Assembly (NCBI GenBank): GCA_900696625.1
Contig: CAADGU010000266.1
Coordinates: 1-34,676 of the forward strand
DNA: 34,676 nucleotides
Source of the DNA: an uncultured Chloroflexota bacterium
Lineage (GTDB): Bacteria; Chloroflexota; Anaerolineae; Promineifilales; Promineifilaceae
Direction: 5' to 3'
The notes beneath the pieces are model-generated. The model was not told where the DNA came from, did no database searches, and saw only the letters and a program-made list of their open reading frames with translations. Positions 18,945 through 25,029 of the stretch are shown piece by piece. The stretch's first letter is position 1, and each line of letters starts with the position of its first letter. Both the position numbers and the translations under genes were made by a program.

Positions 18945-19584
18945 TATTTCCCACGAACCCGATCTGGGGTATGTTTTTCATCCAGCCAACGGCTGTTTTG
19001 GCGGAACTCGGTTTGATGTAATCATGCACGCGCAGCCCACCCGGCGCCACTACGACCCGGAAAGGGTGCAGGTCACTATCGTCCGCCAGAACGGTACTGA
19101 GACATGTCACCTGCACTACCCTGCATCGCCAGGGCAGCACCGGGTTTGCCCTGGTCGCATTGTGCTGACCGACCGGGTGGGCAAACAAGTGGTGGCTTTT
19201 TGTTTTGGGGGGGAACTGCATATCATCCACCAACCCCCGGAAACGATTTGTGTCTTTCAGTCGCCGGCGCCCATCCTTGACCTGACACTCTCTCACAACG
19301 CCGATGCCTTTCTGGCTAACGAAGTGGAAATTTTGCTGGCGCAGCGGCGGGCTGCCTGGGACCCGCAACAGCCCCACCGGTTTGAGCAGCACATGGCTCA
19401 AGTAGACCCGGCAGTGTTATATGCTGCCTGCCTGGAAGCGTTGGCGGCTAAATTTGTTACCTTTCCCCATGTGAATGATCCCGTCCGCCGCCAATTTGTG
19501 CATGATGTTCAGCAGGAGATCAAGGTGTGGCAGCAGGACGGCCGTTGGCCTGCGCCCGTACCGGAATTAGCGGAGTTGTTATGA
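18928..19584 (+). CDS. Uncharacterised protein
   Basis: 218 residues from the ATG at 18928, inside the end of the DUF4259 gene; a TTG at 18916 would add four residues. It is mixed alpha/beta with no signal peptide or membrane helix. The first half is beta-rich (F-D-V-I-M-H-A-Q-P-T, RVQVTIVRQNG, R-I-V-L-T-D-R-V-G-K-Q-V-V-A-F), the second half helical (EVEILLAQRRAAW, A-A-C-L-E-A-L-A-A-K-F). I do not recognise a family. The 17-base overlap upstream and ATGA overlap downstream make it part of one translationally coupled unit under the riboswitch. Confidence 0.75.
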   Translation: MTTAIDISHEPDLGYVFHPANGCFGGTRFDVIMHAQPTRRHYDPERVQVTIVRQNGTETCHLHYPASPGQHRVCPGRIVLTDRVGKQVVAFCFGGELHIIHQPPETICVFQSPAPILDLTLSHNADAFLANEVEILLAQRRAAWDPQQPHRFEQHMAQVDPAVLYAACLEALAAKFVTFPHVNDPVRRQFVHDVQQEIKVWQQDGRWPAPVPELAELL

Positions 19585-20528
19585 AATCTTGGGGCCGCCG
19601 GTTGAAACCGATATCTATTACCCAAAACCTGCAAAAGCAGGTTGACAGGCGTCCGGTAACGCGCTTTAGCGCGTTACTTGTATCAGCCTGGGGATGGAAT
19701 CCCCAGGGATGGTGGTCATTAGTCGTGGCGCTTTTTACCCTTGCTGCCTGTACATCGGCCGGGCCAACGGAGGTAACGGCCGTTCCCCTCATCTCCGCAC
19801 CCCTCATCACCGAAACGACGACTGTCGCAAATACAGCGATGCCTGCCGTTCCCGAACCGGCCACCGCGCCCGCCGAAGCTATCCTCATTCAGGAACCGGG
19901 GCCTGGCTCGCGCCTCACCAACCCACTGCTGGTGCGCGGCGAAGCCGAGTCCACCTTTGAGCAAAACCTGGTGGTACGGCTGGTGGATGCAAACGGGACG
20001 GAGTTGGGCTTAACGGCCGTAACCATTGCCGCCGAAATGGGCCAGCGTGGGCCGTTTGAAGCCACGCTCCCCTTTGCCGTCAGCGGTGAGCAGCAGGCGT
20101 TTATTCAGGTGTTTGCCACCAGTCCGCGTGATGGGGGTGTGACGCACCTGAATGCGGTGGGGGTGATGTTGACCGATGGCGCGGCGGCGATACGGCCGTC
20201 GCTGCCAGAAACAACCGAACGCATAGCCATCACCCAGCCGGCATTGGCGGCAACCATCAGTGGTGGCACAGTCCAAATAAGTGGCGTAGGTGTCGCCAGT
20301 TTTGAACAAACCCTGCTGGTGGAACTGGTGGGTGAAGATGGCACAACGCTTGCCAGCCAACCCGTCATCGTCAATGCGCCCGACCTGGGCCAACCGGGCA
20401 CATTCAGCGCCCAATTGCCCTACCGCGTGACGACTACCGGCTCCGGCCGCGTCGTGGTCCGCGACATCAGCCCCGCCTTTGGCGGCGATACGCACGTAAC
20501 CAGTGTCGAGGTAACGTTATCACCCTGA
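19581..20528 (+). CDS. Lipoprotein with two Gmad2-like immunoglobulin-like domains and an extended N-terminus
   Basis: 315 residues from the ATG at 19581, which overlaps the upstream stop as ATGA. A hydrophobic segment W-W-S-L-V-V-A-L-F-T-L-A-A-C ends in a lipobox with Cys57. This is unusually far from the start, because about 27 residues (16-42) are encoded by a block of three hairpins (19626-19707). After a Thr/Pro/Ala-rich linker come two similar domains of about 105 residues. They begin I-L-I-Q-E-P-G-P-G-S-R-L-T-N-P-L-L-V-R-G and I-A-I-T-Q-P-A-L-A-A-T-I-S-G-G, and share S-F-E-Q/T-F-E-Q and PGTFSAQLPY/RGPFEATLPF. This matches the Gmad2 domain of spore-germination and envelope proteins. Likely surface anchored; the function is unknown. 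Confidence 0.85.
   Translation: MKSWGRRLKPISITQNLQKQVDRRPVTRFSALLVSAWGWNPQGWWSLVVALFTLAACTSAGPTEVTAVPLISAPLITETTTVANTAMPAVPEPATAPAEAILIQEPGPGSRLTNPLLVRGEAESTFEQNLVVRLVDANGTELGLTAVTIAAEMGQRGPFEATLPFAVSGEQQAFIQVFATSPRDGGVTHLNAVGVMLTDGAAAIRPSLPETTERIAITQPALAATISGGTVQISGVGVASFEQTLLVELVGEDGTTLASQPVIVNAPDLGQPGTFSAQLPYRVTTTGSGRVVVRDISPAFGGDTHVTSVEVTLSP
19626..19707. repeat. Block of three perfect hairpins inside a coding sequence
   Basis: AACCTGC-AAAA-GCAGGTT (19626-19643, 7-bp stem), GTAACGCGC-TTTA-GCGCGTTAC (19656-19677, 9-bp stem) and CCTGGGGA-TGGAA-TCCCCAGG (19687-19707, 8-bp stem) follow each other within 82 bp. They encode residues 16-42 of the lipoprotein without breaking the frame. Three perfect stems in tandem point to an inserted repeat element. 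Confidence 0.85.
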
Positions 20529-20530
20529 GT

Positions 20531-20557
20531 GAGGAGTTCGCACGCCCACGTGCGAAC
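20531..20557 (+). repeat. REP palindrome 1
   Basis: A GGAG tetranucleotide (20533-20536) is followed by stem TTCGCACG (20537-20544), loop CCCA and stem CGTGCGAA (20549-20556). It sits just after the lipoprotein stop. A 5' GTAG/GGAG tetranucleotide next to a hairpin is the established substrate form of REP-associated tyrosine transposases. Confidence 0.88.
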
Positions 20558-20592
20558 GGTCAAATCGAGGCACAGAACGTTTGCGTCACAGT

Positions 20593-20620
20593 TGGGGCAT
20601 GTGGGCGTTCCCCACCCCTC
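20593..20620 (-). repeat. REP palindrome 2, inverted and diverged
   Basis: Read on the minus strand: GAGGGG, then TGGGGAACG, loop CCCA and CATGCCCCA. Loop and length match REP 1, while the outer stem has changed on both sides (TGGGG pairs with CCCCA), so the hairpin is kept in part. Two inner positions no longer pair. Confidence 0.65.
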
Positions 20621-20632
20621 ATATGACAGATT

Positions 20633-20659
20633 GAGGAGTTCGCACGCCCACGTGCGAAC
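20633..20659 (+). repeat. REP palindrome 3
   Basis: Identical to REP 1: GGAG at 20635-20638, stem TTCGCACG at 20639-20646, loop CCCA, stem CGTGCGAA at 20651-20658. It lies 38 bp before the transposase start. The remainder of the 169-bp gap shows nothing else. Confidence 0.88.
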
Positions 20660-20697
20660 GGGTAACATGAGATAGTTGAATCGAGGGCAAAAATAAT

Positions 20698-21234
20698 ATG
20701 AAACGAGTTTATGATGAAAGCTTCGTTTACTACATCACTTTCAACGTATATGGCCGACTAAATTTGTTTGTGCGGCCAAGTTTTGTGATCCCGTTGCTTG
20801 ATAGTCTCAACTTCTATCGCTACAAGCAACAATTCAAACTGCTTGGCTATGTCATCATGCCCGATCACCTTCATCTCCTTATCCTGGTTTATGGTCAGGC
20901 AACCATTTCAGATATTATGCGCGATTACAAAACATTCACTTCCAAGCGCATCATCAACCAGGCTGAAGTAGAAAATATCCAGGAATGGCTGATTGCTTTT
21001 CAGACTGCTGGTAATGAAACAGAGCGTAGTGAAAACAAGGTCTGGCAAGATGGTTTCTGGGATAAAACCATTTTTACGGAAAAACTCCTCAGGCAAAAAC
21101 TCAATTACATTCATCGCAATCCGGTACGTGCCGGATTGGTTGATGATGTGGTTGCTTATCCTTACTCAAGCTACCGCAATTATGAGTTTGACGATAACAC
21201 CCTGATTGAAATTGATAAAGATTGGCTATTTTAG
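20698..21234 (+). CDS. REP-associated tyrosine transposase (RAYT, Y1/HUH family)
   Basis: 178 residues, full length. The fold start Y-Y-I-T-F-N-V-Y-G-R is followed by the HUH motif M-P-D-H-L-H-L-L with His57 and His59, helix D-I-M-R-D-Y-K-T-F-T-S-K-R, then the G-F-W-D and Y-I-H-R-N-P-V-R-A-G-L-V blocks typical of RAYTs. Tyr137 in the last block is conserved; which Tyr is catalytic cannot be settled by eye. Known family activity is single-strand cleavage and joining at REP hairpins next to GTAG/GGAG. REP hairpins lie on both sides, two or three before and two after, in inverted layout. The gene has no ACGGCCGT copy and seems more AT-rich than its neighbours, which fits acquisition. No clear ribosome-binding site. 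Confidence 0.93.
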   Translation: MKRVYDESFVYYITFNVYGRLNLFVRPSFVIPLLDSLNFYRYKQQFKLLGYVIMPDHLHLLILVYGQATISDIMRDYKTFTSKRIINQAEVENIQEWLIAFQTAGNETERSENKVWQDGFWDKTIFTEKLLRQKLNYIHRNPVRAGLVDDVVAYPYSSYRNYEFDDNTLIEIDKDWLF

Positions 21235-21235
21235 C

Positions 21236-21262
21236 GAGGAGAGCCGCACGCCCGCGTGCGGC
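21236..21262 (+). repeat. REP palindrome 4 with compensatory stem changes
   Basis: GAGGAG, one extra A, stem GCCGCACG (21243-21250), loop CCCG, stem CGTGCGGC (21255-21262). Compared with REP 1, TT to GC in the 5' arm is matched by AA to GC in the 3' arm, so both changed base pairs are retained. It starts two bases after the transposase stop. Confidence 0.85.
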
Positions 21263-21270
21263 GTTGTTCG

Positions 21271-21296
21271 TTCGCACGTGGGCGTGCGAACTCCTC
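21271..21296 (-). repeat. REP palindrome 5, inverted
   Basis: Read on the minus strand: GAGGAG followed by TTCGCACG, loop CCCA, CGTGCGAA, identical to REP 1 and 3. It lies ten bases before the metH start codon and would fold close to its ribosome-binding site (AGGTAAGG). Confidence 0.88.
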
Positions 21297-21306
21297 AGGT
21301 AAGGTT

Positions 21307-24300
21307 ATGAACAGAACAGAACTACTCAAACAACAATTACAAGAACGTATTTTGATCATTGACGGGGCGATGGGGTCGTTGATCCAGACGTATGGATTGG
21401 ATGAGGCGGGCTATCGCGGGGAGCGATTCGCCGATCATCCGGCGGATGTGAAGGGCAACAACGAAATCCTGAACCTGACCCGGCCAGACATCATCCACGC
21501 CATCCACACCGCCTATCTGGAAGCAGGTGCAGACATCGTGGAGACCAATACCTTCAACGGCAACCGCTTCTCGCAGGCCGAATACCAGATGGCCGAATAT
21601 GTGTATGAAATCAACCGGGCGGCCGCCCGGATTGCCCGTGAAGCGTGCGATGCGTTTGTAGCCAAGGCCGCAGGGCGCGGGCCAAGATTTGTCGCCGGGT
21701 CATTGGGGCCGTTGAACCGCACGCTTTCGCTCTCGCCAGATGTGAATGATCCGGGCTACCGGGCGGTGACGTTTGACGAGGTGGCGGAGGCGTATGCCGA
21801 AGCAACGCGCGGTTTGATGGACGGCGGCGCGGACATCCTGCTCATCGAGACGATTTTTGACACGCTGAATGCGAAGGCGGCCATCTTTGGCATTCAAACT
21901 GTTTTCGAGGAGAAGGGTGAGGAACGGCCGTTGATGATTTCTGGCACGATTACGGACGCCAGCGGCCGCACCCTGTCCGGGCAGACGATGGAGGCGTGGT
22001 ATACCTCCATTCGCCACGCCAACCCGTTGATTGTGGGCATGAATTGCAGCTTTGGGCCGGGAGCGTTACGGCCGTATCTCACCACCATCGCCAACATGAG
22101 CGACAGCTACATCAGCTTCTACCCCAACGCCGGTCTGCCCGATGGATTCGGCGGCTTTGCCGAATCCATCGAGGATATGGCGCCCGTGCTGCGGGAATTG
22201 GCGCAGGAAGGGTATCTGAACATCGTCGGCGGCTGCTGCGGCACCACGCCCGCCTTCATCAAAGCGTTCGCCCAGGCCGTGGCGGGCATTGCACCGCGCA
22301 AGCCGGCGCCGCGCCCCCAATATCTGCGCCTCAGCGGGCTGGAACCGTTGACTCTGACGCCGGAACTGAACTTTGTAAACATCGGCGAGCGCACCAACGT
22401 CACCGGCTCCCGCCGCTTTGCCCGCCTGATTTTGAACGGGCAGTATGACGAAGCGTTGAGCATTGCCCGCAGCCAGGTGGAAAACGGGGCGCAAATGATT
22501 GACATAAATATGGACGAAGGGATGCTGGATGCCCTGACCGCCATGCCCCGCTTCCTCAATCTCATCGCCGCCGAGCCGGACATTTCCCGCGTACCGGTAG
22601 TCATTGACTCCTCCAAGTGGGAGGTGATTGAGGCCGGGCTGAAGTGTGTGCAGGGCAAATCCATCGTCAACTCCATCAGCATGAAGGAGGGGGAAGCGGA
22701 ATTTATCCGCCAGGCGAAGCTGGCGCGGCGCTATGGCGCGGCGGTGATTGTGATGGCCTTTGACGAGCAGGGGCAGGCGGATACGTTTGAGCGCAAGATT
22801 ACCATTTGCCAGCGGGCTTATGATGTGCTGACGCAGCAGGTGGGCTTCCCGCCGGAGGACATCATTTTTGACCCGAATATTTTTGCCATTGCTACTGGGA
22901 TTGAGGAGCATAATGAATACGGCCGTGCCTACATTGAGGCTACACGCTGGATCAAACAAAACCTGCCCCATGTACACGTCAGCGGCGGCGTCAGCAATAT
23001 CTCCTTCAGCTTCCGCGGCAACGACTTGATGCGCGAAGCCATTCACGCCGCCTTTTTGTACCACGCCATCCAGGCGGGTATGGACATGGGTATCGTCAAC
23101 GCCGGGCAGTTGGCAATATACGAAGAGATTCCCAAACCGCTGCTGGAGCGGGTGGAGGATGTACTCTTTAATCGCCGCCCAGACGCCACGGAGCGGCTGG
23201 TGGAACACGCCGAAATTGTGCGCGGTGCGGGCAAGGAAAAAGTGGCCGACCTGGCCTGGCGGGATGCGCCGGTGAACGAGCGCCTGGCGCATGCCCTGGT
23301 GAAGGGGATTACCGACTTTATTGTGGAAGACACGGAAGAAGCGCGGCAGCAGGCGACACGGCCGTTAGACGTGATCGAAGGGCCGCTGATGGATGGTATG
23401 AACGTGGTCGGCGATCTGTTTGGCGCGGGCAAGATGTTCTTGCCGCAGGTGGTGAAATCGGCGCGGGTGATGAAGCAGGCGGTGGCTTATCTGGTGCCGT
23501 TCATCGAAGCGGAGAAGGCGGCGGCGGGGCTGAATGGGCAGAGCAACGGCCGTATCGTTATGGCCACCGTGAAGGGGGACGTACACGACATTGGCAAGAA
23601 CATTGTCGGTGTGGTGCTGCAATGCAATGGCTATGAAGTGATTGACCTTGGGGTGATGGTACCGGCGGAGAAGATTTTGCAGACGGCCGTAGACGTGAAA
23701 GCAGACATCATTGGCCTGAGTGGGCTGATTACGCCCTCGCTGGAGGAGATGCGTTATGTGGCCAGCGAAATGACCCGGCAAGAGTTCGAGATTCCGCTGC
23801 TGATTGGCGGGGCGACGACGAGTAAGATTCATACGGCCGTGAAAATTGAACCTAACTACCTGGGCAGCCAGACCATCCACGTGGTAGATGCTTCCCGCGC
23901 TGTGGGCGTCGTCTCCCACCTGTTGGGCGACGACAAAGCCAGCTACATTGCCGATGTGAAAGCCGAATATGAAACCATCCGCGTCCAACACGGCAACCGG
24001 CGTGACCGCGCCCGCCTCATCCCCATTGCCGACGCCCGCGCCAACCATTTCAAAACAGATTGGGCCACTTACCAACCACCCCAACCCAACTTTCTGGGTA
24101 TCAAAACGTGGGACAATTACCCAATTACCCAATTACGCAATTACATAGACTGGACACCCTTCTTTGCCACCTGGGAACTGGCGGGCAAATTCCCGCGCAT
24201 TCTGGAAGACCCGGTGGTCGGCGAATCGGCGCGGCACCTGTATGCCGATGCCCAGGCCATGCTGGACAAGATCATCGCCGAGAAATGGCTGACGGCGAAA

Positions 24301-25029
24301 GCGACCATTGGCATCTTCCCGGCAAATAGCGTGGGGGATGATGTCATCATTTTCAACACAGAGGGGCGACCAGAGGTCGGGCAGAGGCGCAGAGGGGAGG
24401 AGATTGAGATTGGGAAGATTCACTTCTTGCGGCAGCAGATGGAGAAGCCGCCGGGCCGGCCGAATATGTGTCTGGCCGATTTTGTGGCCCCGATGGAGAC
24501 GGGATTGGACGATTATCTGGGCATGTTTGTGGTGACGGCGGGCATTGGGTTGGCGGAAAAGGTGGCCGAATTTGAGGCGGCGCACGACGATTACAGCGCC
24601 ATCTTGCTGAAGGCGCTGGCCGACCGGCTGGCGGAGGCGTTTGCCGAGGCGATGCACGCCTGCGTGCGCCGCGAGTATTGGGGTTATGCCGCCGACGAAT
24701 CGCTGGGAAATGAGGCGCTGATTGCCGAGACTTATCGCGGCATTCGGCCGGCGCCTGGCTACCCCGCCTGCCCCGACCACACCGAAAAGGGTGAACTGTT
24801 CCGGCTGCTGGAGGCGACCTGCCGTACCGGGGTGCAGTTGACGGAAAGTTATGCCATGTGGCCGGCGGCGGCCGTGTCTGGCTACTACTTCTCGCACCCG
24901 GAAGCGGCCTATTTTGGGATCGGCCGTGTCAACGCCGACCAGATCGCCGACTACGCCACCCGCAAAGGCCAGCCCATCGAAATCACCGAACGCTGGCTGG
25001 CTTCCAACCTGGGGTATGAACCTGTATAA
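21307..25029 (+). CDS. metH: Cobalamin-dependent methionine synthase
   Basis: 1240 residues from the ATG at 21307, after AGGTAAGG. A longer reading from 21256 would translate a REP hairpin and is rejected. All modules are present. The homocysteine domain has zinc ligands Cys247 (V-G-M-N-C-S-F-G) and Cys310/Cys311 (G-G-C-C-G-T), the same numbers as in E. coli MetH. Then come the methyltetrahydrofolate domain ([13 protein letters not shown]), the cobalamin cap, the cobalamin domain with D-V-H-D-I-G and the lower axial ligand His760, and the activation domain ([11 protein letters not shown] onwards). It transfers methyl from methyltetrahydrofolate to homocysteine. Oddities: an octamer array at residues 936-947, and a Gly/Arg/Glu-rich insertion, [19 protein letters not shown], encoded near 24360-24417. 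Confidence 0.97.
24114..24145 (+). repeat. Four tandem CAATTACN octamers inside metH
   Basis: Units 24114-24121, 24122-24129, 24130-24137 and 24138-24145 read CAATTACC twice, then CAATTACG and CAATTACA. They encode [10 protein letters not shown] at the start of the activation domain, a region whose [11 protein letters not shown] is conserved in the family. The same octamer makes the hairpin at 440-478. Confidence 0.8.

Follow-up and report, generated by a model that had tools for sequence, protein, structure and literature searches.

A GGAG-tagged REPtron in a Chloroflexota genome and related REPINs apparently dispersed for the most part as MITE cargo

The window analysed here is a stretch of 34,676 nucleotides (contig CAADGU010000266.1 of assembly GCA_900696625.1) from an uncultured Chloroflexota bacterium of the family Promineifilaceae, whose genome is referred to below as G000. 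Between positions 20531 and 21296 it contains a gene for a REP-associated tyrosine transposase (RAYT) together with tagged hairpins, and on re-reading the sequence we found the gene and its flanking hairpins exactly at the coordinates given for them earlier (Table 1). The locus is a REPtron, i.e. a RAYT, which is a domesticated transposase of single-stranded DNA, with its own cognate REP hairpins on either side. Its tight fit to both neighbouring genes, which the original prediction had pointed out, is evident from the positions: REP1 starts 2 bases downstream of the stop codon (20526-20528) of the preceding gene, and the ATG of metH lies 10 bases past the end of REP5.

Table 1. Features of the RAYT locus and its neighbours (positions in the window)
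Feature	Coordinates	Strand	Remarks
Gmad2-domain protein gene, upstream neighbour	19527..20528	+	predicted start; neighbour conserved in G001-G004
REP1	20531..20557	+	GAGGAG tag, 8(9)-bp stem, CCCA loop
REP2	20594..20620	-	decayed inverted REP; once the REPIN partner of REP1; 92% matching cores
REP3	20633..20659	+	same sequence as REP1; perfect inverted repeat with REP5
RAYT (TnpAREP-like) HUH transposase, 178 aa	20698..21234	+	profile and structure matches
REP4	21236..21262	+	second stem subtype, GCCGCACG-CCCG-CGTGCGGC
REP5	21270..21296	-	REP1 sequence inverted; REPIN with REP4
metH, cobalamin-dependent methionine synthase, downstream neighbour	21307..25029	+	start conserved in sister species

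REP1, REP3 and REP5 share one hairpin, GAGGA-GTTCGCACG-CCCA-CGTGCGAAC, the stem of which has 9 bp with the final G of the tag included and 8 bp without it. When folded as single-stranded DNA, this hairpin reaches -11.8 kcal/mol (z = -4.3 to -4.5), and none of the shuffled sequences was equally stable. REP3 and REP5 are complementary at 29 of 29 positions across the RAYT gene, forming a perfect 29-nt inverted repeat. REPIN-like inverted pairs are formed by REP1 with REP2 and by REP4 with REP5, the latter folding at -29 kcal/mol (z -6.9). The claim that the hairpins have identical 8-bp stems and 4-nt loops holds for the three identical copies, but not for REP2, a decayed relic with no excess stability over its shuffles (z = -0.8). 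It had also been claimed that REP4 differs from REP1 by two base pairs changed on both arms, and that the fold is therefore under selection. The two altered pairs are indeed present; however, the REP4 subtype also occurs elsewhere in the genome, so that the difference is one between separate subtypes and REP4 is not a mutated REP1. Selection on the fold is backed by covariation across the whole family (see below), not by these two hairpins alone.

The RAYT product matches the NCBIfam family of REP-associated tyrosine transposases (NF047646) with 123.3 bits (cut-off 80; 6.9e-36), and Pfam Y1_Tnp with a score of 37.4 (cut-off 23). Its nearest solved relative, by both sequence and predicted fold, is the REP-bound TnpAREP of E. 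coli (4ER8), which was the best PDB match of the predicted fold (E 1e-5, TM about 0.55), the model itself having a pLDDT of only 67; the two lines of evidence agree with the original assignment to the RAYT type of HUH transposases. The alignment with 4ER8 places the HUH motif at H57-L58-H59 and the catalytic tyrosine at Y137 (Y115 in 4ER8), and H57, H59 and Y137 are invariant in two related RAYTs (L072 and L073). The genome holds one close RAYT copy. A low-scoring Y1_Tnp match to a 392-aa ORF on contig C325 was set aside, the flank that was read being devoid of REP-like hairpins.

The usual hallmark of REPs is the 5' tetranucleotide GT[AG]G (PMC2817692, PMC6006769, PMC8266576), which is absent from this locus. 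The stems are immediately preceded by GGAG, within the GAGGAG tag, as had been noticed originally. GGAG is found as well at the orthologous loci of G004, G029 and G057, and the locus of G035 has GTAG, the one orthologue to keep the canonical form; GGAG is therefore likely to be the counterpart of GTAG. No mention of GGAG as a REP tag was found in the open-licence REP papers searched for the word. In E. coli TnpAREP, the residues described as contacting the GTAG tag include W94, Q95, E100, H101 and R104 (PMC6006769, PMC8266576). The first two are kept here as W116 and Q117, whereas E100 is replaced by D122, H101 by K123 and R104 by F126, and these alterations would fit a changed tag. From the model of base contacts in PMC8266576, one would expect cleavage at CT (or CC) with a GGAG tag.

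The original prediction had been made dependent on further copies of the hairpin in the genome. The exact hairpin occurs at 19 sites in the 6.95-Mb genome, and the GAGGAG-tagged hairpin with up to 2 mismatches at 23, both reversed controls giving 0. These copies also bear on the question of whether the hairpins at the locus just terminate transcription or affect mRNA stability in the metH region and happen to be repeated. Although they do lie between co-directional genes beside metH, and the REP4/REP5 fold is very stable, the same tagged hairpin recurs next to unrelated genes at about 20 further positions, and related hairpins flank orthologous RAYTs elsewhere, which refutes such a function as the sole explanation and leaves this reading with hardly any credibility; a regulatory role could nevertheless coexist with the others. 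The stems of 38 distinct hairpins, drawn from G000, G003, G004 and the orthologous RAYT loci, contain 68 double-changed cells against 24 +/- 3.8 in shuffled sets, and have a covariation score of 0.646 against at most 0.12 in slid registers; the rows had been pre-filtered for at least 80% pairing, which inflates the percentage paired, but the two outer and two apical stem positions show a diversity of base-pair types that the filter alone does not create. These data support the conclusion that the REP palindrome is conserved as a structure and that its fold is selected throughout the family.

Close RAYTs with 62-69% identity are encoded by one genome of the same genus (G004), two of the same family (G029 and G035), one of the same class (G057) and by two Chloroflexi MAGs. 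The hairpin conservation expected of relatives with the transposase is seen in these orthologues, which are flanked by hairpins of their own with different stems and mostly the GGAG tag, i.e. TTCGCATC-CTCA-GATGCGAA in G004, GCATTCTCAAATGC in G035 and TTCCGCATC-CCCT-GATGCGGAA in G057. In G004 the RAYT gene has the same position, with the Gmad2-domain gene on one side and metH on the other, and its identity to G000 amounts to 69% for the RAYT, 77% for the Gmad2-domain gene and 91% for metH. Judging from the sequences of the two sister species, the REP stem has been switched (CACG in G000, CATC in G004) while the RAYT kept its place. This agrees with the orthoswitch of Nunvar et al. (2013, PMC3686654), in which an orthologous RAYT at one locus is accompanied by different REP stems in sister species; the present case differs in that it concerns a new lineage and that MITEs still contain REPs of both the old and the new type. 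In the same intergenic region the sister species G001, G002 and G003 have one or two tagged REPs and no RAYT, and G005 has neither RAYT nor REP. Directly repeated REPs are present at the RAYT locus of G004, and loss of the gene by recombination between such repeats would leave the remnant of one or two REPs found in G001-G003.

Nearly all copies outside the locus are REPINs, i.e. inverted pairs of the form GAGGAG-hpA-hpB-CTCCTC (20 tagged sites). At 17 of these 20 sites, in a census that was seeded with the hpA sequence and may favour recent, MITE-amplified copies, the REPIN is enclosed by the terminal inverted repeats (TIRs) of a MITE, which belongs to one of three families that we call alpha (CAGGG[CT][GA]ATTCCAAAGTC, about 123 bp), beta ((C)TAGTACCYGACCAAC/TTGTTGAGGTACTAG) and gamma (GTGTGCGGA). 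The repeat shells around the REPINs have sharp outer boundaries. Among the sites sampled in G004 and G003, the shells encountered are beta and two additional ones, delta (TCAGTAGATCGAA) and epsilon (TATCTTCTCAATA). A complete pair of TIRs from one family was present at 24 of 40 sites in G004 and 8 of 20 in G003, as against 19 of 1600 shuffled trials (1.2%). Another 11 of the 40 sites in G004 are without a known shell and resemble ordinary bare REPINs, so that RAYT-driven spread may matter as much in that genome. Throughout the G000 sites (L016-L038), hpA is the RAYT-flanking REP and the stems of hpB are specific to the shell family, a pattern due in part to search bias; the between-family uniformity of hpA and hpB (2.8% versus 30%) is not evidence, because the sites were found via hpA.

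The alpha shell has TIRs, no coding capacity and a target-site duplication, i.e. the attributes of a MITE: direct repeats of 9-10 bp flank 9 of 14 complete copies, as against 0 of 182 mismatched pairs of left and right flanks. With its CAGGG ends, 9-10 bp duplication and length it is like the ISAs1-type MITEs, but differs from these and from other IS-family MITEs in having a REPIN as its core. Furthermore, the relic of an ISAs1 transposase in G001 is followed by a near-identical alpha-like end. The contigs searched, which end inside the element, yielded no intact IS with alpha ends, the relic being the only part classified, and a 35-aa piece ahead of one alpha-like end had no family match. HUH transposases are not known to make target duplications; the duplications of alpha therefore support the view that its shell and core move as a unit by an IS (DDE) transposase and not by the RAYT, and this support for a DDE enzyme is limited to alpha. 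For beta, 4-bp duplications ([CG]TAG), and for gamma, imperfect ones of roughly 9-10 bp, were read by eye; for gamma, delta and epsilon, no autonomous IS with matching ends came to light. Folded single-stranded, an alpha element forms a junction of the TIR stem, a GAGGAG/CTCCTC stem and two hairpins. One 85-bp alpha element in G001 (L164, contig C70) has its REPIN collapsed into a single hairpin.

The same data argue against mobilisation of the whole element, shell plus REPIN, by the RAYT in the manner of a non-autonomous IS200/IS605 derivative. The intact RAYT gene and the numerous REPIN copies would suit such a process, but it is contradicted for alpha by the duplications and the ISAs1-like ends, and it accords poorly with G003, where 95 CATC hairpins are present despite the absence of a close RAYT; we consider it very improbable. 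The persistence of REPs in G003 without a close RAYT fits hitchhiking.

A given shell can contain different cores. Four genomes (G000, G001, G003 and G004) have a beta shell with a CACG-type REPIN, and G003 and G004 also have one with a CATC-type REPIN. In G000 (L288), and in G023 from another genus (L285), the beta shell contains an unrelated pair of the GTAG/CCGCTTCAGCGG type. All of these cores begin at the same AATTT/AGTTT junction. The CCGCTTCAGCGG hairpin was absent from all the distant RAYT loci examined as a source of the GTAG-type cores. Delta has as its core either a CATC REPIN or an unrelated simple AGACMTCCGATTTC hairpin (L267, L269, L270). Two single elements may be recorded here: L197 (G021, contig C279) has alpha TIRs around a different inverted hairpin pair, GGAGCCTGAGCTTGTCGAAGG...GGCTTCGACAGGCTCAGCCTCC, and L172 (G003, contig C239) is an alpha element with an insertion in its REPIN region, namely a TTCCACGC-type REP like the one flanking the RAYTs L082 and L098.

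Such interchange could also come about if the RAYT inserted REPINs at the apex of palindromic DNA, for instance in extruded or lagging-strand hairpins of MITEs, so that MITE centres would be hot spots whose cores are repeatedly replaced. The core is central in all five shell families, three different REPINs, including a non-homologous one, occupy the same beta junction, and a further repeat is found inside the REP loop of six hairpins; in addition, according to a short aside of Di Nocera et al. (2013, PMC3733652, section 7), REP dimers regularly occupy the centre of a longer palindrome in A. variabilis, T. roseum and H. neapolitanus. However, a central position is no proof of apex preference, because insertion elsewhere in a MITE would destroy its TIRs. 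Moreover, the left junctions share no common target sequence, and no truly empty shell was found that would reveal the target, the 85-bp alpha copy retaining its collapsed hairpin. We regard targeted insertion as unlikely. The repeat in the REP loops, GCAT[CCTTCGGCAAGCTCAGGACAAGTTC]TGAGGATGC, sits at the hairpin tip (L213, L218, L225, L234, L263 and L108), and with a REPIN inside a MITE and a repeat inside a REP the nesting thus has layers, from MITE to REPIN to loop repeat.

The spread of REPs is poorly understood, and the credit for it usually goes to RAYTs alone. In the genomes compared here, REPINs lie inside shared TIR-bearing shells with interchangeable cores, and their dispersal thus appears to have been for the most part that of a cargo within MITEs moved by DDE transposases, in addition to dispersal by the RAYT or in its place. 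We consider it probable that the locus is a REPtron whose stems have been switched in place, and that REPINs elsewhere are mostly the central cargo of MITEs and spread mainly by MITE transposition, with a minority being bare. Spread mainly by MITEs is supported, at the level of sequence, by the shared TIR shells in all families and by the target duplications in one. By analogy with TnpAREP, the RAYT would bind the hairpin in its folded single-stranded form together with the 5' tag (GGAG here, GTAG classically), and would cut and join tagged REP strands through Y137. It may occasionally place REPINs at new sites, some of them within MITEs, whose transposition would then multiply shell and core together; the bare REPINs would be the expected product of dispersal by the RAYT. 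A closer partnership of two transposases, in which the shells serve as exchangeable vehicles and the RAYT, by apex insertion, fills their central hairpin with the REPIN current at the time, so that REPs outlive and outspread their own RAYT, is a bolder idea that we hold to be rather doubtful.

RAYT/REP systems, REPINs, the orthoswitch and REP dimers in palindromes are already known. With the REPtrons of RAYT/TnpAREP (E. coli 4ER8; groups 2 and 3; PMC2817692, PMC6006769, PMC8266576) the present system shares the HUH-Tyr family, flanking inverted tagged hairpins, REPINs, genomic dispersion and co-divergence of REP and RAYT; it differs from the classical ones in its tag, perfect stems and 4-nt loops. 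As in Pseudomonas fluorescens SBW25 (PMC3116915), the dispersed unit is an inverted REP pair, but most copies here lie inside TIR-bearing MITEs and the two halves, hpA and hpB, differ. The palindromes in the section of PMC3733652 mentioned above are not treated there as transposons, whereas those described here have TIRs, target duplications in alpha and cores interchangeable across species. Compared with the open-licence literature, new points here are the identification of the shells as MITEs, the number of such shells, the exchangeable cores and the GGAG tag. In these related genomes REPINs ride several MITE families, persist without a close RAYT and swap stems at a fixed gene locus, and the group is thus a natural test of hitchhiking against RAYT-driven spread, with a RAYT whose tag is unusual and whose tag-reading residues are unlike those of E. 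coli. It also gives a warning that REP copy number is not necessarily a measure of RAYT activity.

Two minor observations concern the surroundings of the shells. A lone gamma end without a REPIN, possibly half an element, lies beside an ORF for a LacI-like regulator in G000 (L068/L279, contig C582, position 851). In addition, a palindromic family, AGTGCCAGGCAAGGGGC...GCCCCTTGCCTGGCACT, is found near several REPIN-bearing MITEs, beside alpha and gamma elements (L028, L030, L034 and L051).
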